Of a stretch of DNA of 44,073 nt, positions 15,262-30,193 are shown one piece after another (positions within the stretch are counted from its first letter, which is position 1; the number at the start of each line of letters is the position of its first letter). The notes below the pieces were generated by a model, which did not search any database, was not told the DNA's origin, and worked only from the letters and a program-made list of their open reading frames with translations. Source of the stretch: Flavobacteriaceae bacterium (GTDB lineage: Bacteria; Bacteroidota; Bacteroidia; Flavobacteriales; Flavobacteriaceae); the NCBI GenBank assembly GCA_002400885.1, contig NVRM01000004.1:2511-46583 (forward strand), in the 5' to 3' direction. Both the position numbers and the translations under genes were made by a program.

Positions 15262-15504
15262 ATGAAATGTAACCTCCTCCTTTTTGGAATTGCCGCAGAA
15301 ATTGTTGGCACTAACGAATTAACGATTGATATCGTAAAAGACAGTAATGTTCTTGGTCTAAAGAAAATTTTAATTGACACTTATGTTGGTTTTAAAAACG
15401 TAGATCAGTTTGCCATTGCTGTAAATGAATCTTATGCTAGTGACGAAACTGTAATCGAAAAAAATGACATTATAGCTATCATCCCTCCTGTTAGCGGTGG
15501 GTAA
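15262..15504 (+). CDS. moaD: Molybdopterin synthase small (sulfur carrier) subunit MoaD
   Basis: An 80-aa beta-grasp ubiquitin-like protein ending in the required Gly-Gly (IIPPVSGG). In the family the C-terminal glycine is adenylated by MoeB and turned into a thiocarboxylate that gives its sulfur to cPMP in the MoaD/MoaE complex. The N-terminal strand (CNLLLFGIAAEIVG) and the late IEKNDIIAIIPP are typical. The matching moaE lies 2.6 kb downstream, with an outer-membrane-protein gene inserted between them; the MoeB partner is at 22223-23305 on the other strand. Confidence 0.93.
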   Translation: MKCNLLLFGIAAEIVGTNELTIDIVKDSNVLGLKKILIDTYVGFKNVDQFAIAVNESYASDETVIEKNDIIAIIPPVSGG

Positions 15505-18137: not shown

Positions 18138-18560
18138 ATGAAACGTATTTCCACAAAAATAACAAACGATGTATTGAGTTTAGACAGCTGCTATAAATTT
18201 GTACAAGCACCTGAATGCGGTGCTATATCCCTTTTTGTAGGAACGGTACGTAACCTTACGAAAGGAAAAACAGTACATCAATTAGATTTCTCAAGCTATA
18301 GAACAATGGCTCTTAAGGAAATTAATAAAATTGCACAAAAGGCCTTGGAGAGCCACCCCATTCATAAAATAGCCATTCATCACGCAGAGGGCATTTTAAA
18401 AGTAGGAGATATCCCTGTTATTATTGCCGTTTCCTCAGCCCATAGAACGGCTGCTTTTGACGCCTGCCAATTTGCTATAGATACGTTAAAAAAAACGGTT
18501 CCTATTTGGAAAAAAGAACATTTCGATGATGGCGAAATTTGGGTAAGTCCTCAGCCCTAA
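18138..18560 (+). CDS. moaE: Molybdopterin synthase catalytic (large) subunit MoaE
   Basis: A 140-aa protein that with MoaD inserts two sulfurs into cPMP to make molybdopterin. Conserved features: CGAISLFVGTVRN (residues 27-39), the histidine/arginine motif VSSAHRTAAFDAC (98-110), and the active-site lysine region LKKTVPIWKKE (117-127). Length is normal, and no MoaD domain is fused. It starts 38 bases after the DUF5686 gene and ends 9 bases before the ATPase gene, so it probably shares a transcript with the latter. Confidence 0.95.
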   Translation: MKRISTKITNDVLSLDSCYKFVQAPECGAISLFVGTVRNLTKGKTVHQLDFSSYRTMALKEINKIAQKALESHPIHKIAIHHAEGILKVGDIPVIIAVSSAHRTAAFDACQFAIDTLKKTVPIWKKEHFDDGEIWVSPQP

Positions 18561-21132: not shown

Positions 21133-22221
21133 ATGTCTAAAAACAGTCTCAATAATCATCTTTACACACTCGCTAAATCCGTTTTAAACGAAGGGCTATA
21201 CAAAAGACACGACACTGATAAAATGCTTATTCCTTTTATATTTTTAAAAACCAACACAACAGAGGTCATAAAAAATTTAGCTTCAGACAAAGACCCTCTA
21301 GCTTTGTCTCAAAAAATAAGTACTAGCGACCAGCAAGATTATACACATATAATTATTACGCACGAAGGCTTTTTAAAGGATGAAAACGGGAATAGAGTAG
21401 ATGCTATCATTGTACACGCTTTTAACTTGAGCCAGAAAAAAGGACTACAAATCGCGCAAAAATTTAATCCAAAAAACACTGGGGAATTTAAAAAAATAGG
21501 AAGCATTGAAACTTTAGGGACTCCAGATTTAATATTTAAACTAAAGAATTTCTTCGCTAAAATTGATCTTAAAAAAGAGGCTCACTTTAAAACGGAGGTA
21601 AAAACAGACCACGAGGAACTAGAAGCCATTCACACGATATTAACACATGATGATCCTAGTATTATAAGTGAAGCTATCACAAACTTCATACTCGAGAAAC
21701 TATCCAACAACGAAAATGAGAGGTACAACGGCCTCTTTGAAATTAACATCCTTAAAAATGAATCTTTAAAAAACATAGGGCTATTACGATTTTTATGCAG
21801 CAATGCTATCAATGAAGTAATTGGCTCAGAAACAAGTAACATTTGGATGGAAAAAACCAAGAGGAAGATTCATATTACTTGTCACTATAATAACTCATTA
21901 TTACACGAGGCAAGAAGGAGTAAAAACACTCCTGAAAAATTTCAATTGGATGCTAATAATTATGCCGACTACAACCTAAAACAACTAGACAAAGAGTTTA
22001 AATCCCTGCTATTGGAAGCTGAAAAAAACTCCAACATTAAGGCGCTAATGAAACTTTCTACATTAAACTTTGAATATAATCGCAGAGGAGTTGTACAACC
22101 TAAAACAATGGCTAAAACTCACATAAATACAGACAACATATCCCTCTTCAGAACTTTAATCATTGGAAGTACGGTTATTTTGTTTGCCTTTTTAGCTTGG
22201 CTATTTTTAATGAAAATGTAA
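21133..22221 (+). CDS. Unrecognised cytosolic protein with C-terminal membrane anchor
   Basis: A 362-aa protein I do not recognise. There is no N-terminal signal. The region at about residues 1-140 looks like a small alpha/beta domain with hydrophobic strands (LIPFIFLKT, THIIITHEGFL, RVDAIIVHAFNL). The region at about 150-335 is helical and charged. A single strongly hydrophobic segment at about 341-360 ends two residues before the stop, so the protein should be tail-anchored with its bulk in the cytosol. Its stop is one base from the stop of the convergent moeB gene. Position after an orphan sensor kinase hints at a signalling or stress role, but this is only context. Confidence 0.65.
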   Translation: MSKNSLNNHLYTLAKSVLNEGLYKRHDTDKMLIPFIFLKTNTTEVIKNLASDKDPLALSQKISTSDQQDYTHIIITHEGFLKDENGNRVDAIIVHAFNLSQKKGLQIAQKFNPKNTGEFKKIGSIETLGTPDLIFKLKNFFAKIDLKKEAHFKTEVKTDHEELEAIHTILTHDDPSIISEAITNFILEKLSNNENERYNGLFEINILKNESLKNIGLLRFLCSNAINEVIGSETSNIWMEKTKRKIHITCHYNNSLLHEARRSKNTPEKFQLDANNYADYNLKQLDKEFKSLLLEAEKNSNIKALMKLSTLNFEYNRRGVVQPKTMAKTHINTDNISLFRTLIIGSTVILFAFLAWLFLMKM

Positions 22222-22222
22222 T

Positions 22223-23305
22223 TTAAAACTTGTCTATTCCTCCGATAAGACTACATACCCTGAGCGTTGGATACTGTTTCTTAATTCTAACGGTTGCCAT
22301 ATAACTTGAAATCCCTTTATGACATATCACAATGTATTTCTTACGACTATCTAAGTGCATTAATTCAGGGTCTAAGGTACTTAAAGGATGTGTCTCGTGA
22401 ATTTTAAAAGGATACTTTGTAGTCATCATCTCTATAACTGACAGTATACGAACTCCCTCTTTAGCTATTTCTTTTTTTAAATCGCTCGCGCTTATTAACA
22501 ATGACGGATCCTGAATGTCACAAGGAAGACCCAAATATTTTTCCTCTTTAAAAATGGCTAAAACAGCCTCTTCCGTTTGTGTTTTCTCTAATTTAAGTAT
22601 AAAATTAGAATTCCTAAGACTGTTATAAATCAACAGCTTATCAATAAGTAATTCTCCCGTCTCTGTGGCAATTTTCAGCACTTCATTTACCTGTAACATC
22701 GCTATAATTCCCACAATGGAATTCAATGTACCTACCGTTTCACAAGTAGGAATGTCTGTCGCTATTTTAGGAAAAGCATCCCTTAAATTAGTACTATACC
22801 TCCCTTGTTCTGACATGTGGTTAAAAGTAGCCACATAGCCCTCAAACTTATATAATGACCCATACACCATGGGTTTCCCCAACACCACACAGGCATCGTT
22901 TATTAGGTATTTAATCGCTAAATTATCCGTAGCATCAACGATGATATCGTAGTCTTTAAAGCTTTGTATAACATTGGTCTTCTCTAAAGCATGCTTAGTA
23001 TATGTCACCTTTGTAAAAGGAGCTCTCGCCTTTATAAAAACAGCCAATGTTTCTGATTTTGAAGCCCCCACATCATCCAAACAATAATAGACTTGCCTGT
23101 GTAGGTTACTCAAGGCTACCACATCAAAATCCATCAAATGAATGGCTCCAATACCACTTGCTGCTACATGCACAGCAATTGTACTTCCCAAGCCTCCACA
23201 TCCCACAATTAACACCTTGGTTTGTCCTAGCTTCTTTTGGCCTTCTAGCCCTATTTCATCAAGGGTGATTTGCCGTTTAAAAAAAGTATTATAGTCCCTA
23301 TTCAT
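22223..23305 (-). CDS. moeB: MoeB/ThiF-family adenylyltransferase fused to a rhodanese domain
   Basis: A 360-aa two-domain protein expected to adenylate the MoaD C-terminus and supply sulfur. Residues 1-240 are the E1-like domain: arginine finger KRQ (10-12), nucleotide loop VGCGGLGS (34-41), NLHRQ (67-71), VDATDN (123-128), and PTCETVGTLNSIVG (186-199) with C188 at the place of the family cysteine. Residues about 268-360 are a rhodanese domain with active-site loop CHKGISS (C328-S334). The two CxxC pairs that bind structural zinc in E. coli MoeB are absent: the stretch before C188 reads GRYSTNLRDAFP. Last gene of the minus-strand Moco run, 11 bases after mobA. ThiF or HesA functions are alternatives, but the neighbours favour MoeB. 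Confidence 0.88.
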   Translation of the reverse strand: MNRDYNTFFKRQITLDEIGLEGQKKLGQTKVLIVGCGGLGSTIAVHVAASGIGAIHLMDFDVVALSNLHRQVYYCLDDVGASKSETLAVFIKARAPFTKVTYTKHALEKTNVIQSFKDYDIIVDATDNLAIKYLINDACVVLGKPMVYGSLYKFEGYVATFNHMSEQGRYSTNLRDAFPKIATDIPTCETVGTLNSIVGIIAMLQVNEVLKIATETGELLIDKLLIYNSLRNSNFILKLEKTQTEEAVLAIFKEEKYLGLPCDIQDPSLLISASDLKKEIAKEGVRILSVIEMMTTKYPFKIHETHPLSTLDPELMHLDSRKKYIVICHKGISSYMATVRIKKQYPTLRVCSLIGGIDKF

Positions 23306-23316
23306 GCTCTTAAATA

Positions 23317-24429
23317 CTAATGTCCAATTTCATTTTTAGCAGCGTCAAATTCTTCAGGAGTATTTATATTTCTAATAAAATCATCTTCTACCTCTACAAT
23401 AGCCACCTCCGAATTAATCAAGACTTTTCTTGGACATGAAATCCCTTGGCTTAAATAATTTAATAATATAGGATAACTCCTAGGCTCCCAAATAGTCACC
23501 AATGGCTCCATAAACTGTTTCGTTTTCCCTTTAATTGCCGTTGCTATTTTTGAAGGGTCTCGTTTTTTTAACAATAACTGAATTAGTTCATCTGTTATAA
23601 AAGGAAGGTCTGTTGCTAGCACTAACCAAGCCGTATTTGGATCCTTTTGAAAAGCAGAACAAATAGCTCCAAAGGGTCCTAAATTGGTAAATACATCTGT
23701 AATTACCGCAGGTCTTAATACCTCCTGTTCCGATCTAATAGATAAAAATGTTTGTAAATGTTGTTTTTCTAAAAGTGCAATTGCCACGGTACGTTGTGCC
23801 TTTCCATAAAACTCTAACAAGCCTTTATCACTCCCCATACGTACACTTTTCCCTCCGGCAAGGACCAACCCTTTTACAGGTGCTATTTTTTCTTCTATCA
23901 ATGCACTTATATGACTAGAAATTCCTTTGGTATCCGAGAAATGGTAGCATTTTAAGTTTTTGATCTGAGGATATTTCGCTTCTAAAAAGTCAAAATATAC
24001 AGCATCTTCATTCAATTTAATTACAAACTGAAGTTGGTCTAATTCTTCCAATCGTTTTAATACAGAAGCCTCTTTGTTTGGATCCAATATTAAAATTTGC
24101 TTACTACCTTTATAATGATTTCCATTGATAAAAGTGAAGTCATAATTTGAAAAATCAATCACCTGATTAAATGTATTCAATCCTTTATTCACAGAAGTCA
24201 CAAGGCTACCTTTAGGATGAAACACAAAACGATCCACAAGGACTACTTCTTGATCCTTTTTATGAGAGGCATCCAAATAAGCCATCTTAAAACGCTTTAA
24301 ATACTTAGACACCTCGGAAACTAGTGCTGCAATATTTTCACAATTAGTCCCCAAAATTGCAATTTCGTTCGGTGCGTAGTTATCGTTATTTCTACGTGTT
24401 AATCTACTGTGTTTGGAATGTTTTTTCAA
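23317..24429 (-). CDS. mobA: MobA molybdenum cofactor guanylyltransferase fused to a degenerate MobB-like domain
   Basis: A 370-aa protein. Residues about 185-370 are MobA: LVLAGGKSVRMGSDKG (188-203), LGPFGAI (250-256), the metal-binding region LATDLPF (271-277) and NINTPEEF (354-361). It transfers GMP (or CMP) to Mo-molybdopterin. Residues about 20-184 are an extra domain starting with a strand-loop-helix (EIAILGTNCENIAALVSEV) placed where MobB has its P-loop, but without the GKT/S lysine, so it cannot be a normal GTPase. The first codon of this frame is TTG; the next Met is at residue 49, inside the extra domain, so TTG is the likely start. It lies 26 bases after moaC and 11 before moeB. 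Confidence 0.87.
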   Translation of the reverse strand: MKKHSKHSRLTRRNNDNYAPNEIAILGTNCENIAALVSEVSKYLKRFKMAYLDASHKKDQEVVLVDRFVFHPKGSLVTSVNKGLNTFNQVIDFSNYDFTFINGNHYKGSKQILILDPNKEASVLKRLEELDQLQFVIKLNEDAVYFDFLEAKYPQIKNLKCYHFSDTKGISSHISALIEEKIAPVKGLVLAGGKSVRMGSDKGLLEFYGKAQRTVAIALLEKQHLQTFLSIRSEQEVLRPAVITDVFTNLGPFGAICSAFQKDPNTAWLVLATDLPFITDELIQLLLKKRDPSKIATAIKGKTKQFMEPLVTIWEPRSYPILLNYLSQGISCPRKVLINSEVAIVEVEDDFIRNINTPEEFDAAKNEIGH

Positions 24430-24455
24430 AATAACTTTTTTTTAATACCCTCTAT

Positions 24456-24932
24456 TTATATCCGATTAATATCTGACTTTCCTCCTGTTTTTTTTAGTAG
24501 CTTCACTTCCTTTATTACCATTTCTTGGGAAATAGCCTTACACATATCATACACGGTAAGTGCTGCAATATTTACTCCTGTTAAGGCCTCCATCTCCACA
24601 CCTGTCTTCCCTTCTATATAAACAGAACATCTAATTTCTATATGTGTTTCGTTTGTGATCGCTATCGTTATATCCACTCCATTTATAAGTAATGGGTGGC
24701 ACATAGGAATTAAGTCCGACGTTTTCTTAACCGCCTGAATCCCCGCAATAATAGCGGTTTGAAATACAGGACCTTTTTTTGTCTGTAATTCATCTCCTTC
24801 AAAATTACTAATAATTTCAGCACCCAAAAACATCGTCGCTAGAGCTGTAGCACTTCGTTTAGTACTTTTCTTATCGCCAACATTCACCATTTTCGGTTGA
24901 TTATTGTTGCCTATATGTGTAAATTTACTCAT
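24456..24932 (-). CDS. moaC: Cyclic pyranopterin monophosphate synthase MoaC
   Basis: A 158-aa enzyme that converts the MoaA product (3',8-cyclo-GTP) into cPMP, the first stable Moco intermediate. The substrate-site motifs KKGPVFQTAIIAGIQAVKKT (52-71), LIPMCHPLLINGVDI (74-88) and GVEMEALTGVNIAALTVYDMCKA (111-133, with D129) are intact. There is no fused MoaB domain. It sits 10 bases after moeA and 26 bases before mobA in the same run. Confidence 0.96.
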   Translation of the reverse strand: MSKFTHIGNNNQPKMVNVGDKKSTKRSATALATMFLGAEIISNFEGDELQTKKGPVFQTAIIAGIQAVKKTSDLIPMCHPLLINGVDITIAITNETHIEIRCSVYIEGKTGVEMEALTGVNIAALTVYDMCKAISQEMVIKEVKLLKKTGGKSDINRI

Positions 24933-24942
24933 ATTTTTTTAT

Positions 24943-26151
24943 TTAAAACGATACATTTCGGTATAAAATAACTGGATAAACTGCTCCTTTTTTAAATTCA
25001 TCTACCTCCGCAGGAAGTTCCATAAAGGCATCTGATTTCACTAAATTCACTAGATCTCCCGACCCATTTCCCTTTTGAGGATAGGCGACCAGCACCCCTT
25101 CTTGGTTCCTTAAAGCAACTTGTAAAAAATACGTCATGGCAGGTTTGAAACTTACATTTTCTCCTAACACTGCTTTCATTGTATTTACCGAAGGTAATCC
25201 CATGGATTTCTGAAACCAAGGCGTAAAATATTTTAAGCAACTTGCGTAGGTAGAAACAGGATTTCCTGGAAAGGCAAAAACAGTAGTCTGGTTTTTCTTC
25301 CCAAACCAGAATGGTTTCCCTGGGCGTTGCTTGACTTTATGAAAGAGTTTATCCACTCCTAAAGTATCCAAAACATCTGGGATAAAATCAAATTTACCTT
25401 TGGAGACAGCTCCACTAAACAACAACACATCATAATTATTTAAAAAACCATCAATAAGTGTTGTTAATTTATCTTTATCATCCGAAATATGTATGGTCGT
25501 TGCAGCGATGGTCATCACCTTTAAAATAGACACTACTGCGTGTACATTACTTCTTCTAATTTGATGATCAGCCGGAATTTTATCAACTGACACCAACTCA
25601 TCCCCTGTAGAAATAACCAATATTTTAGGACATTTAGCTACTTTTACCATTGACTTTCCAACGGTGGCAAGCACCCCTATTTCGGCAGGTGATATCACGG
25701 TGTTCATTGGAATCAACACATCATTTATTAAATGATCAGCACCTTGTTTATGTACATTTTTAAAATAGTGCACTCCATACTCTTCCACAGTAGCAATACC
25801 GTTTTCTATACGTAGCAGTTCATAAGGAATTACGGCATCCGCATTTACAGGAAGTACTGCACCTGTCATTGCTTCTATACAATTATTCGTATTGTGCAAT
25901 GTTAATTGTGGGCTACCAGCCGCTTGAACACTTTCTATCTTAAAAGAACGTATACCTTGTTCATAGGCCGTAGTACAAATGGCAATACCGTCCATACTAA
26001 CCCTATTAAACGGAGGCAAGTCTCGATCTGAAACAATGGTGTTTTTTAATACGCGACCTTCAGACTCCTGAAAAGGAATGCTTTCAACACCCCAATCTTC
26101 CGTATTTTGAAGTATTATTTCTAAAGCTTTTTGGCTAGTAATTAATCCCAT
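24943..26151 (-). CDS. moeA: Molybdopterin molybdenumtransferase MoeA
   Basis: A 402-aa protein that inserts molybdate into (adenylated) molybdopterin. Visible motifs: PPFNRVSMDGIAI near residue 45, AGAVLP-type MTGAVLPVNADAVIPYE at about 94-111, VISTGDELV at about 177-185, the FSGAVSKGKFDFIPDVL loop at about 243-259, QRPGKPFWFG at about 282-291 and FAFPGNPVSTYA at about 300-311. The domains run in the normal order and the length is normal. The adenylylating partner MogA/MoaB is not in the window. It is separated by 11 bases from moaA and by 10 from moaC. Confidence 0.96.
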   Translation of the reverse strand: MGLITSQKALEIILQNTEDWGVESIPFQESEGRVLKNTIVSDRDLPPFNRVSMDGIAICTTAYEQGIRSFKIESVQAAGSPQLTLHNTNNCIEAMTGAVLPVNADAVIPYELLRIENGIATVEEYGVHYFKNVHKQGADHLINDVLIPMNTVISPAEIGVLATVGKSMVKVAKCPKILVISTGDELVSVDKIPADHQIRRSNVHAVVSILKVMTIAATTIHISDDKDKLTTLIDGFLNNYDVLLFSGAVSKGKFDFIPDVLDTLGVDKLFHKVKQRPGKPFWFGKKNQTTVFAFPGNPVSTYASCLKYFTPWFQKSMGLPSVNTMKAVLGENVSFKPAMTYFLQVALRNQEGVLVAYPQKGNGSGDLVNLVKSDAFMELPAEVDEFKKGAVYPVILYRNVSF

Positions 26152-26162
26152 ATCCTTTACTT

Positions 26163-27155
26163 TTAACCACCAATGGTAGACATACTTTCAGAAACGATAT
26201 TGGTTCCTCGCATTTTTTCTGCTACAAATCCATTTTTTGGTTTATGGTGTACTGTGTTTATAAATAACTGCTTTAAGTCCTTATCACTGGCCCCTTTCCG
26301 AATAAAATCACGCACATTAAACACGCCTTGATCAAACAAGCAGTTTTTAAATAAGCCTGTGGCAGTAATTCTAATTCTATTACAATCACCACAAATAGTC
26401 CGTGTGAATGCCGGAATAATTCCAAAAGTACCTTTACTCCCTTTGACTCTAAAATTATGTGATGTTGAAGATTTACCATCGTTCATTTTTTCAATTTCTT
26501 GAAAATGGCTACTGATATGATGGTATATTTTATCGTAGTCCCACAGTTCACCTGTAGCTCTTAATCCTTTGCCATTAAAAGGCATTTCCTCAATAAATCG
26601 TACTGCAATATCCCTGTGTTTTGTCAAGGCTACAAAATCTAAAATCTCATCTGTATTCACGCCAGAAAGCGTCACGATATTCAATTTTAAACGAATACTA
26701 CTCGCTGTTAAATCATCCAGTACTTTCCGTACTTCCCGAAATGATTTTCTTCGAACAATTGTATTAAATTTCTCTTCTTTTAAACTATCAATACTTAAAT
26801 TAACTGCATTGATATTCATTTTTTCCAAGGCAGCGATATGTGCTCCAATCAATGCACCGTTTGTCGTAATATTAATCTGTTCCAATCGCTTATTATAAGA
26901 TAGCGATTCTAAAAACTTTATAAAATCTTTCCTTACAAAAGGTTCCCCTCCAGTCAAACGCACTTTATTCACCCCTAGTTCCGAAAGCACCCGTGTAATA
27001 CGATACATTTCCTTAAAGGTTAACAAGTCTGATCGCTCCACAATTTGGATTCCTTCCGCGGGCATACAATACTGGCAGCGAAAATTACATCGATCCGTAA
27101 CAGCTAATCTCAAATAAGAGATTTTTCGTCCAAATTTATCTAGTAATTGATCCAT
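26163..27155 (-). CDS. moaA: GTP 3',8-cyclase MoaA (radical SAM)
   Basis: A 330-aa radical SAM enzyme that starts Moco synthesis by rearranging GTP. The N-terminal [4Fe-4S] motif is CNFRCQYC (C23, C27, C30). The C-terminal GTP-binding [4Fe-4S] cluster is held by C255 and C258 (ICGDCNR) and C272 (KNCLF). The SAM-binding LTGGEPFVRKD (68-77) and the C-terminal Gly-Gly tail (STIGG), which is required for activity in the family, are present. It follows the DUF6691 gene by 33 bases and heads the biosynthetic part of the run. Confidence 0.97.
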   Translation of the reverse strand: MDQLLDKFGRKISYLRLAVTDRCNFRCQYCMPAEGIQIVERSDLLTFKEMYRITRVLSELGVNKVRLTGGEPFVRKDFIKFLESLSYNKRLEQINITTNGALIGAHIAALEKMNINAVNLSIDSLKEEKFNTIVRRKSFREVRKVLDDLTASSIRLKLNIVTLSGVNTDEILDFVALTKHRDIAVRFIEEMPFNGKGLRATGELWDYDKIYHHISSHFQEIEKMNDGKSSTSHNFRVKGSKGTFGIIPAFTRTICGDCNRIRITATGLFKNCLFDQGVFNVRDFIRKGASDKDLKQLFINTVHHKPKNGFVAEKMRGTNIVSESMSTIGG

Positions 27156-27188
27156 ATCTCTTTTCCTTAATTAAGCATTTATTTTTTT

Positions 27189-27605
27189 CTAATGAGGTAA
27201 ATGTTTTTGAAATTTACCATATAAAAACGTTCCTAGTAAGGCCCCAAAAATTACGATTAAAATAGAAAATACACCATTTCCAATTAATACAAACATAGGT
27301 CCTGGGCAGGCACCGGCTAAAGCCCATCCCAATCCGAAAATTATACCTCCAAACAAGGCTCGCTTCCATTTAAAATCTTTGGCAGGAACAATGATTTTAT
27401 CCCCGTACACATTTTTTATAATTCCTTTTCTAAATAACAACATTAAAATAGCTCCCAGTCCAACGGCTGATCCAATTACTCCATACATATGGAACGATTG
27501 AAATTTGAACATTTCATAAATTCTAAACCAGGAAATCAATTCTCCTTTAGTCATGATAATTCCGAAAACTATTCCGAGCAATCCAAATTTTATATATTTC
27601 ATCAT
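27189..27605 (-). CDS. DUF6691 / YeeE-YedE-type membrane protein, second half of a split sulfur importer
   Basis: A 138-aa protein with about four membrane segments. The motif GLGWALAGACPGPMFVLIGNG (residues about 98-118) is one of the two cysteine-containing pore motifs of the YeeE/YedE (TsuA) thiosulfate-transporter fold. In many bacteria this fold is split over two proteins, the YeeE/YedE partner (here the gene 4 bases upstream) and a DUF6691 protein. The transported compound (thiosulfate or another reduced sulfur species) is inferred from the family. It is followed 33 bases later by moaA. Confidence 0.85.
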   Translation of the reverse strand: MMKYIKFGLLGIVFGIIMTKGELISWFRIYEMFKFQSFHMYGVIGSAVGLGAILMLLFRKGIIKNVYGDKIIVPAKDFKWKRALFGGIIFGLGWALAGACPGPMFVLIGNGVFSILIVIFGALLGTFLYGKFQKHLPH

Positions 27606-27609
27606 CTTC

Positions 27610-28170
27610 TTAAAATATTAGCGGGAATAAGACCCAAGTCATAATAATACCACCCGTAAAAAAACCTACAACGGCTATTAAAGATGGAATTTGAAGATTA
27701 CTCATTCCTACGATGGCATGTCCTGAAGTGCAACCTCCAGCCCATCGGGCTCCAAAACCAATACAAAGCCCCCCCATTAAGAGCAGCCCTATTCCTTTTA
27801 CACTTCCTATAGCTTCCATTCCAAATAATTCACTTGGAACCACTGTATCTCCAGCATTTTCAAAACCTAACACACTCAAATCACTGATGGTTTGAGGGTT
27901 CAAATTTATGGGAAGATCTACCGACAAATAGTTAGAAGCTATAAATCCACCAATTACAGCACCCATTAGAAATACAATATTCCACAAATTTACTTTCCAA
28001 TCTTTTTTAAAATAATCACTAAATCTACCTGCACCTCCCATGGTACAAAGTGTTTCTAAATTGGAAGATACTCCAAAACTCTTTCCAAAAAAATACAGTA
28101 AAAACATTACAGCAACAATACTTGGACCTGCCACGTACCACTGCCATGGTTGAGAAATAATCTCTATCAT
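27610..28170 (-). CDS. YeeE/YedE-family membrane protein, first half of a split sulfur importer
   Basis: A 186-aa protein with about five membrane segments (residues about 12-27, 60-79, 125-141, 150-165, 168-185). The hallmark GFGARWAGGCTSGHAIVGMS (about 138-157) contains the pore cysteine of the YeeE/YedE family, which moves thiosulfate-like compounds through cysteine relays. Together with the next gene (4 bases away) it should make a full transporter. A -7 promoter box and an inverted repeat lie just upstream, and a Crp/Fnr gene precedes it, which suggests regulation by that protein. Confidence 0.87.
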   Translation of the reverse strand: MIEIISQPWQWYVAGPSIVAVMFLLYFFGKSFGVSSNLETLCTMGGAGRFSDYFKKDWKVNLWNIVFLMGAVIGGFIASNYLSVDLPINLNPQTISDLSVLGFENAGDTVVPSELFGMEAIGSVKGIGLLLMGGLCIGFGARWAGGCTSGHAIVGMSNLQIPSLIAVVGFFTGGIIMTWVLFPLIF

Positions 28171-28191
28171 CTTATTTTATTTTGTTAATTT

Positions 28192-28211
28192 AAAGGTAAA
28201 CATACACCTTT
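28192..28211. promoter_or_regulatory. Candidate operator upstream of the sulfur importer
   Basis: Inverted repeat AAAGGT (28192-28197) and ACCTTT (28206-28211) with an 8-nt spacer. It lies between the -7 box at 28225-28232 and the ATG at 28170, so a bound regulator would block transcription near its start. The adjacent Crp/Fnr protein is the obvious candidate, by inference only. Confidence 0.35.
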
Positions 28212-28224
28212 TTTAATTCGGTAT

Positions 28225-28232
28225 CAAATTTA
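28225..28232 (-). promoter_or_regulatory. -7 promoter element for the importer/Moco run
   Basis: TAAATTTG on the minus strand fits TAnnTTTG, 54 bases before the yeeE start and overlapping the space after crp. A TTG complement is found at 28248-28250, but the spacing is 15 rather than 19. Confidence 0.45.
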
Positions 28233-28239
28233 GTGAATT

Positions 28240-28872
28240 TTAAAACACAAGGACATCTACCCTATTTCTAAACAACTTAATTTTACCTTCCACCTCTAAT
28301 TTTTTCAACAACCTAGACACCACTACTCTAGACGTGTTTAGGTCATAGGCTATTTCTTGATGCGTGGTATTAAGAGAGGTTTCTCTAAGAATCAAGGCTT
28401 TATCGCATAAATATTTATACAAACGCTGATCCATTTTCATAAAAGCAAGGGCATCAATGGTTTCCATCATCTCATTCATACGAACATTGTAACTATCTAT
28501 CACAAAATTACGCCAAGACTTATACTTGATTAACCACTCGTCCAATTTCTCTAAAGGAATAAAAATAATTTCAGATTCCTTTTCCGTAGTGGCTCTTATT
28601 CTACTTTTGACCTTTGCAAAACCACTTGCAAAAGAAATCGCACAGGTATCTCCTCTCTCTAAAAAATACAGTAAAATTTCATCTCCATTTTTATCTTCTC
28701 TTACAATTTTAATAGCTCCGTTTAACAACAAAGGAATCGCGTTCATCGTCCCCCCTAAATCGATTAATAATTCGTTTTCTTTTATTTTTTTAAAAGTACC
28801 AACTTTAATTATTTCTTCAAGAAGCTCTGGCTCAAATACGACTGAGTAATAATCGTTTAATTTTTCTCGCAT
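28240..28872 (-). CDS. Crp/Fnr-family transcriptional regulator
   Basis: A 210-aa regulator. The N-terminal cNMP-binding-like beta-roll spans about residues 20-130 (LIDLGGTMNAIPLLLNGAIKIVREDKNGDEILLYFL, then GDTCAISFASG). A long dimer helix (MNEMMETIDALAFMKMDQRLYKYL) leads to a Crp-type winged HTH at about 160-205 (TTHQEIAYDLNTSRVVVSRLLKKLEVEGKI). The N-terminus has no cysteine cluster, so an Fnr-type iron-sulfur sensor is unlikely. Its start overlaps the 3' end of waaA by 16 bases. Genes of this kind are often found next to YeeE/YedE sulfur transporters in Flavobacteriia, so control of the importer is a reasonable inference. Confidence 0.9.
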   Translation of the reverse strand: MREKLNDYYSVVFEPELLEEIIKVGTFKKIKENELLIDLGGTMNAIPLLLNGAIKIVREDKNGDEILLYFLERGDTCAISFASGFAKVKSRIRATTEKESEIIFIPLEKLDEWLIKYKSWRNFVIDSYNVRMNEMMETIDALAFMKMDQRLYKYLCDKALILRETSLNTTHQEIAYDLNTSRVVVSRLLKKLEVEGKIKLFRNRVDVLVF

Positions 28873-30104
28873 AATTGTAGGCTATTTATAGTGATTTGGG
28901 TTGCCCCTATATTTTTAATTACGTAATTTAAAGACTTTTCTCCTGTTGATTTCCGATAGGTATCATCTGTATAAAATCGAGTTAATAAGGGATTCAATTC
29001 CTCTGAATTCCGAATAGAAAAGCAGCCTTTCTCTCGGAGTAGTGCAATGGCTTCATTAAACTTAGCGTAATTAGGGCCGATGATCAACGGTAAACCGAAG
29101 GTTGCTGGTTCTAGTACATTGTGCACGCCAGACTTAGTAAATCCACCTCCAATATACGCCACAGAAGCCCTGCTGTATATTTTTGTTAAGATCCCAATCG
29201 TGTCTACGATAAAGACCTGATACTCTTTCAAATCCTTTCCTTCTTTCTCTGAAAACAATACTACTTTTTTCTGAATAGTCTCTTGAAGTCTTTTAATATC
29301 ATCCGGCTTCATATTATGAGGAGCTATGATAAATTTCTCTTTATCCGTCGCTTTATTATTGATGTAATTCACTAAAAGTTCCTCGTCTTCTTTCCAGGTA
29401 CTCCCGGCCACAAGTACGTAGCTATCATTTATAAAATCGGCAATAAAATCAATGTAATTATCTTGTTTAGTAATCTCAAACACACGATCAAACCGTGTAT
29501 CACCTGCCACAATCACCTTGTCTATCCCTATATTATTTAGCAATAACTTGGAAGTAGTATCTTGAACAAAAAAGGTATCCATCCCTTGTAATACTTTTCG
29601 CATCCAGGTTCCATACCATTTAAAAAACACTTGTTTTTCTCTAAAGATTCCAGAAACTAGCACTGTTTTCACTTGTTGTTTTTTCAGTTGTAACAAGTAA
29701 TTAGGCCAGAACTCATATTTGACAAAGATCGCCAATTCTAGATTTAAAAAACTCACAAACTGTTTGGCATTTGTAGCAGTATCAAAAGGGAGGTAACAAA
29801 TAAAATCCGCTCCCTCGTAATTCTTTCGCACTTCATAACCCGAAGGAGAAAAAAAGGTAAGGAGTATTTTCAACTGCGGACAATCCTTTTTTATTTGCTC
29901 CATAATAGGCCTTCCTTGTTCAAACTCTCCGAGAGAGGCACAATGAAACCATACAATTTTATCGCTTGGAGAAAATGCTTTTTTTAGATCCTCAAAAACC
30001 GTAGTCCTCCCTTTTACAAAGAGTTTGATTTTGGGACTAAACAAGGCGGCAATTTTAAGTATTTGCCAAGCCATGTTACTTATTATATTATAGATTATAC
30101 TCAT
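28857..30104 (-). CDS. waaA: 3-deoxy-D-manno-octulosonic acid (Kdo) transferase
   Basis: A 415-aa inner-membrane-associated GT30 glycosyltransferase that adds Kdo to lipid A precursors. The N-terminal anchor and KIAALFSPKIKLFVKGR are followed by IVWFHCASLGEFEQGRPI (about 50-67, with the family's catalytic-base Glu), LTFFSPSGYEVRK, and the donor-binding C-terminal half with VAGSTWKEDEELL, IAPHNMKPDDI and YIGGGFTKSGVHNVLEPATFGLPLIIGP. Length is normal. It follows the rpmA terminator. A -7 box at 30111-30118 lies so close to the ATG that the message would be nearly leaderless. Confidence 0.95.
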   Translation of the reverse strand: MSIIYNIISNMAWQILKIAALFSPKIKLFVKGRTTVFEDLKKAFSPSDKIVWFHCASLGEFEQGRPIMEQIKKDCPQLKILLTFFSPSGYEVRKNYEGADFICYLPFDTATNAKQFVSFLNLELAIFVKYEFWPNYLLQLKKQQVKTVLVSGIFREKQVFFKWYGTWMRKVLQGMDTFFVQDTTSKLLLNNIGIDKVIVAGDTRFDRVFEITKQDNYIDFIADFINDSYVLVAGSTWKEDEELLVNYINNKATDKEKFIIAPHNMKPDDIKRLQETIQKKVVLFSEKEGKDLKEYQVFIVDTIGILTKIYSRASVAYIGGGFTKSGVHNVLEPATFGLPLIIGPNYAKFNEAIALLREKGCFSIRNSEELNPLLTRFYTDDTYRKSTGEKSLNYVIKNIGATQITINSLQLCEKN

Positions 30105-30110
30105 ACCTTA

Positions 30111-30118
30111 CAAAGGTA
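30111..30118 (-). promoter_or_regulatory. -7 promoter element immediately upstream of waaA
   Basis: TACCTTTG on the minus strand is a perfect TAnnTTTG, only 6 bases before the waaA ATG. If used, transcription would start at or within a few bases of the start codon. There is no TTG at the 19-nt spacing, where the rpmA terminator lies. Confidence 0.35.
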
Positions 30119-30130
30119 CAAAATAAGGGC

Positions 30131-30166
30131 ATAAAAAAGCTCCTAAACCAATTGGTTTAGGAGCTT
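30131..30166 (-). terminator. Intrinsic terminator of rplU-rpmA
   Basis: A perfect 30-base palindrome (30137-30166; arms aagctcctaaaccaa and ttggtttaggagctt), followed on the minus strand by TTTTAT. It closes the ribosomal-protein operon ahead of waaA. Confidence 0.88.
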
Positions 30167-30193
30167 AATATTGTATAGTGTAACAAATGTTTC

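Follow-up and report, generated by a model that had tools for sequence, protein, structure and literature searches.

In Flavobacterium IR1 and others, the genes for synthesis of the molybdenum cofactor (Moco) are clustered in an operon that brings together moaA, moaC, moeA, mobA and a moeZ-like gene (PMC12758843). That operon also includes sumT, moaD and moaE; it has no sulfur importer, and YeeE is not mentioned there. Transporters of the YeeE/YedE type (PF04143) include the full-length thiosulfate transporter YeeE/TsuA and a split arrangement of unsettled substrate, named PmpA and PmpB (PMC11582611). In Serratia and Acinetobacter, two half-size YeeE/YedE proteins are encoded with a persulfide dioxygenase (PDO) and the regulator BigR in the operon yeeE-yedE-pdo2 (PMC7315123, PMC11582611). 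Here, we describe a locus of a Flavobacteriaceae bacterium in which a split importer, a Crp/Fnr-family regulator and Moco genes form one run. The locus lies in a 44,073-nucleotide stretch of contig NVRM01000004.1 (assembly GCA_002400885.1), hereafter the window. An earlier reading, made from the sequence alone (the sequence-only reading), had described eight packed minus-strand genes with gaps of 4–69 bases. We recovered all eight between positions 28872 and 22223, using the open reading frame (ORF) list of the window and Pfam-type family scans. The run, its upstream neighbour and two further Moco genes are as follows.

28857–30104, minus strand: waaA (Kdo transferase), the upstream anchor, kept in relatives; ORF and family scan
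28240–28872, minus strand: crp, Crp/Fnr-family regulator; ORF and family scan
27610–28170, minus strand: yeeE half (PF04143), PmpA-like; ORF and family scan
27189–27605, minus strand: DUF6691/PF04143 half, PmpB-like; ORF and family scan
26163–27155, minus strand: moaA, GTP 3',8-cyclase; score over the TIGR02666 cut-off, in a divergent family-level clade
24943–26151, minus strand: moeA, molybdopterin molybdotransferase; family scans
24456–24932, minus strand: moaC, cyclic pyranopterin monophosphate synthase; family scans
23317–24429, minus strand: mobA, with a TTG start and an N-terminal extension of ~180 residues; family scans
22223–23305, minus strand: moeB, adenylyltransferase of the MoeB/ThiF type, its C-terminal domain (C328) rhodanese-like but divergent; family scan
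15262–15504, plus strand: moaD, 80 amino acids with a Gly-Gly end, absent from the gene list of the sequence-only reading
18138–18560, plus strand: moaE, molybdopterin synthase large subunit, likewise not mentioned there; family scan

The gaps along the run, from crp to moeB, are 69, 4, 33, 11, 10, 26 and 11 bases, and all parts of the run belong to known families. In keeping moaA, moaC, moeA, mobA and a moeZ-like gene together, the run is like the flavobacterial Moco operons (PMC12758843). With moaD and moaE, a complete Moco pathway (moaA, moaC, moaD, moaE, moeA, moeB and mobA) is present within the window. At 33 bases, the gap between DUF6691 and moaA is too short to hold a terminator or a clear promoter. 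At the other end, crp and waaA share 16 bases, and the run may therefore start further upstream; waaA in turn comes after rplU-rpmA. We think it fairly probable that a Crp-controlled sulfur-redox unit with its own Moco supply is present here in reduced form. The case is built on gene order, protein clades, operators and co-localisation, which are read directly from the DNA.

Both halves of the importer scored above the PF04143 gathering cut-off (41.2 and 48.8 bits against 27). They cover opposite ends of the profile (12–104 and 264–310), the yeeE half being C-terminal and the DUF6691 half N-terminal. Judged by this coverage, the window importer is a split PmpA/PmpB-type pair and not the full-length thiosulfate transporter YeeE/TsuA. 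The sequence-only reading had called it a thiosulfate-type importer; the family assignment stood, but the thiosulfate label has its basis in full-length YeeE. Cysteines occur in GGCTSG and GACPGP, at places that may correspond to Cys293 and Cys91 (PMC11582611). The pair would import sulfur compounds. At 186 amino acids, the first importer protein (yeeE1) is longer than the ~130 amino acids stated for PmpA.

We surveyed 299 genomes of the family. yeeE was found in 231 and moaA in 173, at E-value thresholds of 0.001 and 1e-50 respectively; the counts also depend on genome completeness. The moaA proteins fall into a close group (63–71% identity outside the genus of the window) and a distant group (37–48%). 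The layout seen in the window recurs: the importer adjoins moaA in nine genomes from six genera (G000, G001, G003, G027, G254, G206, G270, G121 and G133), all with moaA of the close group and none with moaA of the distant group. Chance adjacency was rejected on the strength of this recurrence. The order shared by the fetched regions, with small changes, is waaA-crp-yeeE-yeeE-moaA-moeA-moaC-mobA-moeB. A small ORF separates crp and yeeE in G121, and crp is missing in G133. A second, distant member of the Crp family (31–32% identical) is encoded between DUF6691 and moaA in G270 (L071:9356-9988) and after DUF6691 in G049 (L065:1947-2579). The order can also be broken. Thus, waaA is followed by moaA without yeeE in G060, G115, G239 and G005, and by crp and moaA without yeeE in G148. 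Conversely, waaA-crp-yeeE (G049, G226) and waaA-yeeE (G035, G260) occur without moaA. The same moa cluster has no yeeE beside it in G060, G115, G183, G239 and G005. Across the family, 82 of the 231 yeeE genomes have no moaA match and 24 of the 173 moaA genomes have no yeeE, numbers blurred by thresholds and incomplete genomes. The sequence-only reading knew of no description of the coupling. Our literature search agreed, finding no paper on yeeE beside Moco genes or on an importer-Moco-Soe block; most subscription journals were outside its coverage.

At ~80 further importer loci of the family the usual context is crp-yeeE-yeeE-TauE-MBL/rhodanese protein. This has the same make-up as the yeeE-yedE-pdo2 operon (PMC7315123, PMC11582611), except that the regulator is of the Crp/Fnr type here and of the ArsR type (BigR) there. 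The window importer differs in its neighbours, which are Moco genes and not the pdo and tauE of the BigR-operon systems. In a tree of 90 yeeE1 proteins, the copies adjacent to moa, waaA or SoeA genes form one clade of 15 rows (support 99/96), and the other 75 proteins fall outside it. Members of this importer clade are followed, in G202, G279, G085, G064, G050 and G223, by a 538-amino-acid protein combining iron-sulfur (FeS) and NrfD parts and then by a molybdenum (Mo) subunit. The latter is SoeA-like, with 963–970 amino acids and no twin-arginine (Tat) start. The layout, beside the importer clade or the moa cluster, is that of the SoeABC sulfite dehydrogenase (CISM family): a CISM-type Mo subunit without a Tat signal, a 4Fe-4S subunit and an NrfD subunit. 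Unlike SoeABC, the relatives have FeS and NrfD joined in a single protein. The name SoeABC-like follows this layout, the proteins scoring to DMSO/Phs/Ttr models below the cut-offs of those models.

SoeA was found in 13 of the 299 genomes, all of which also have yeeE; in seven of the eight SoeA genomes outside the close moaA clade, yeeE is within ~5 kb. The longer Soe stretches continue with SulP permeases and an MBL/rhodanese protein (PDO), joined by SQR in G202 and G085. The SQR of G202 was searched for in 19 genomes and matched in G115 only; the unit therefore does not generally include SQR. The parts are contiguous in G027, which reads waaA-crp-yeeE-yeeE-moaA-moeA-moaC-mobA-moeB-MutS_V protein-(moaE and moaD on the opposite strand)-SoeBC-SoeA-SulP-SulP-PDO. 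SoeA is likewise near moaD/moaE in G270 and G049 as well as in G027, and within ~10 kb of moaA in G254. In G206 and G121, SulP and MBL/rhodanese genes adjoin the moa genes.

The regulator scored over the cut-offs for PF00027 (cNMP-binding-type) and PF13545 (Crp helix-turn-helix). The window crp is the only copy in its genome at E≤1e-20 and is 93–96% identical within the genus. The moa-adjacent Crp proteins form a clade (support 100/99), which also contains Crp paralogues encoded near the PsrABC operon described below. A blind palindrome search upstream of yeeE returned GTAAC-N4-GTTAC. This predicted operator, with at most two mismatches, precedes 27 of 33 crp-adjacent yeeE genes (8 of them exactly); 8 of 89 shuffled regions also came within two mismatches. 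Exact copies lie upstream of SoeBC (8/10), PsrA (6/10), PDO (5/13) and yeeE (4/8), and shuffled regions gave none. For the single regulator of the sequence-only reading, the support lies in this predicted operator upstream of yeeE in most crp-adjacent relatives; the yeeE site of the window itself is degenerate. No operator with two or fewer mismatches was found upstream of moaA in any locus examined.

A second sulfur molybdoenzyme occurs within the window's genus. Two of its four species, G001 and G002, have a PsrABC operon (CISM family), whose PsrA is a clear homologue of the Thermus polysulfide reductase (E 2e-173). The operon has its own second PF04143 (YeeE/YedE) pair and two rhodanese proteins, and is divergent from a multihaem cytochrome (ExtM-like; L238:13921-16370, L239, L240, L241 and L242). 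The GTAACN4GTTAC operator is found upstream of the operon in G001 and G002. In G063, the PsrABC-YeeE/YedE operon is directly upstream of a Moco cluster of another type. A Crp paralogue gene was also observed near the PsrABC operon in G027, G254 and G270.

From these data we infer substrates, a direction of flow, Crp binding to the predicted sites and co-transcription. Crp would activate the genes of the split, PmpAB-like sulfur importer, and transcription continuing past them would raise Moco synthesis. The consumer of Moco in relatives would be a sulfur molybdoenzyme, either PsrABC or one of the SoeABC-like type. After import, zero-valent sulfur or thiosulfate could be converted to sulfite by the persulfide dioxygenase/rhodanese protein. 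The sulfite would then be oxidised by the Mo enzyme and the product exported by SulP. In the window's genus, Moco would pass to NapA, NasA and an FdhF/YdeP-type enzyme, and to PsrABC in two sister species. The simplest account of the linkage may be that sulfur metabolism needs Moco. More tentatively, we propose that in this family one regulated block arose when a Crp-controlled sulfur-oxidation unit took in the whole Moco operon together with a dedicated importer clade of the PmpAB-like kind. Sulfur signals would then set the Moco supply for sulfur molybdoenzymes, and the block seen in the window would since have lost its sulfite dehydrogenase.

Several observations weigh against a Crp-controlled sulfur-redox unit. 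Neither SoeA nor PsrA was found in the window genome, the assembly of which is 75% complete, and SoeA was not found in G002 or G003 of the same genus. The molybdoenzymes found in the window genome are NapA, a NasA-type enzyme and an FdhF/YdeP-type enzyme; Moco there also serves nitrate enzymes. In the window's genus, the operator site ahead of yeeE has degenerated (TTTGATACCGAATTAAA and similar). A TAAATTTA box lies in the yeeE-moaA gap of G027 and G254, so moaA may have its own promoter in these genomes. Finally, the importer and Soe genes of G202, G085, G050 and G064 run without moa genes in the fetched stretch, hence importer-Soe and moa are not obligatorily linked. PDO was not found in the window genome either, at the same completeness; all three remaining species of the genus have it.

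Candidate regulatory elements in the window are listed here.

30180–30193, minus strand: candidate Crp operator GAAACATTTGTTAC, one mismatch to GTAACN4GTTAC, between the rpmA stop and the rpmA terminator
30137–30166, minus strand: intrinsic terminator-like hairpin after rpmA, from the terminator scan
30111–30118, minus strand: −7 box TACCTTTG of the Bacteroidota type immediately before waaA, a putative promoter for the entire run
28212–28228, minus strand: TTTGATACCGAATTAAA, eroded counterpart of the GTAACN4GTTAC operator, which other genera have at this position
28197–28204, minus strand: TATGTTTA, −7-box-like element, a possible internal yeeE promoter

The candidate operator before waaA is kept with one or two mismatches in three species of the genus and not outside it. 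This lends mild support to a functional site; a single window-wide match with one mismatch could be chance, and conserved sequence may simply change slowly. TACCTTTG was assigned by the Bacteroidota −7 box consensus. Scans of the window for σ70 promoters and terminators gave matches at shuffle level and were uninformative. An Rfam scan of the window gave no match, hence no known Moco or other riboswitch.

The adenylyltransferase part of the MoeB model aligns to MoeB 1jw9 (Z 32.2, root-mean-square deviation 2.0, 233 residues). The label MoeB-rhodanese, used in the sequence-only reading, needs qualifying. A Pfam scan detected no rhodanese domain in the window protein and found one in 4 of 13 relatives at E≤0.01. 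Conversely, a profile of the C-terminal part from the 13 relatives matched rhodanese domains (best E 1.1e-6), and C328 is invariant. The label appears acceptable for a divergent domain. The cysteine is also kept in G060, G115 and G183, where no importer adjoins the moa cluster. Fold searches with the MoeB and MobA models returned catalytic-domain matches only and were silent on the rhodanese and MobB-like parts. Two further observations were made on MoeB. It is the fastest-changing gene of the run within the genus (67–69% identity, against 76–96% for the other seven), and the window protein is without the CXXC pairs typical of zinc-binding MoeB proteins.

The linkage of importer and Moco genes can be explained in other ways. 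The sequence-only reading had imported sulfur feeding Moco directly: YeeE would supply the MoeB rhodanese domain, which would in turn supply the dithiolene sulfur of Moco. Adjacency in six genera, the invariant cysteine of the rhodanese-like domain and gaps short enough for a single transcript are all consistent with this flow. However, importer and Moco genes are often apart, as the counts of 82 and 24 genomes and the five clusters without an adjoining yeeE illustrate. MoeB does not differ between clusters that have the importer and those that lack it, and the importer clade pairs with SoeA in place of moa. Hence, a flow from importer to Moco does not stand, and we regard direct feeding as very unlikely. 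At the other extreme, gene order around waaA may simply have been inherited, with crp-yeeE-yeeE and moaA-moeB as independent blocks that are functionally uncoupled. Every junction is indeed broken in some of the relatives named above, and the operator is eroded in the window's genus. Yet the importer clade recurs beside SoeABC in other genera, Soe or PDO genes adjoin moa genes in several lineages, and in G063 a Moco cluster of unrelated type directly adjoins the PsrABC-YeeE/YedE operon. Inheritance without coupling thus seems unlikely.

The regulator raises a different possibility, since GTAACN4GTTAC is identical to the published operator consensus of the HcpR2 regulators of Bacteroidota (PMC1274295). 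Crp could be an HcpR2-like regulator responding to nitrogen oxides or anaerobiosis; the cluster would then supply Moco for nitrate respiration and the importer would be incidental. NapA and NasA in the window genome fit this idea, as do conserved sites in the genus that precede cytochrome c and thioredoxin genes (GTAACN4GTTAC-like; L218, L226, L234, L221 and L235). Conversely, the sites of relatives precede the sulfur genes yeeE, SoeBC, PDO, SQR and PsrA. The recognition helix here is SRVVVSR, with Val at the reported Pro position of HcpR2. On the targets covered, among which no hcp-type genes were sought, we judge an HcpR2-like role unlikely. It is barely credible that the YeeE pair imports molybdate or thiomolybdate for Moco, although it heads a Moco operon. 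A modABC locus is complete in the window genome, G003, G027, G254 and G270 likewise have ModB, and many genomes that lack a moaA match have yeeE. The pair was therefore rejected as a molybdate importer.

Molybdate uptake may take another form elsewhere in the family. In the other type of Moco cluster (L193–L199; L317), a TauE/TSUP-family transporter lies beside moeA and a helix-turn-helix protein of ModE-like appearance. Among 19 Moco genomes, true ModB was found in eight and a TSUP relative in nine, never both; two incomplete genomes have neither. The TSUP protein may be a molybdate importer that replaces ModABC. The TSUP copies of these 19 genomes are only 33–41% identical and mostly do not adjoin Moco genes.

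The remaining observations concern MobA and the downstream end of the run. The N-terminal ~180 residues of MobA (window 23890–24429) resemble the MobB half of MobA/MobB fusions and are kept in 14 relatives; no recognisable P-loop GxxxxGK[ST] was found in this domain. A plus-strand gene (21133–22221) stops 1 base short of the convergent moeB stop and is split into several frames in G001. In many relatives, though not in the window, moeB is followed by the gene for a 592-amino-acid protein that combines a MutS_V domain with apparent membrane segments (L066:3476-5254 and relatives).

The locus calls for caution when metabolic flow is deduced from the order of genes. Side by side, the genes gave the impression that sulfur feeds the cofactor, whereas the relatives suggest that the cofactor feeds sulfur metabolism. 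Through the operator and the importer clade, the hypothesis of a Crp-controlled sulfur-redox unit is directly testable. If it is true, marine-type Bacteroidota, a group with poorly described enzymes of sulfite oxidation, would have both sulfur oxidation and the supply of Moco under Crp-type control.

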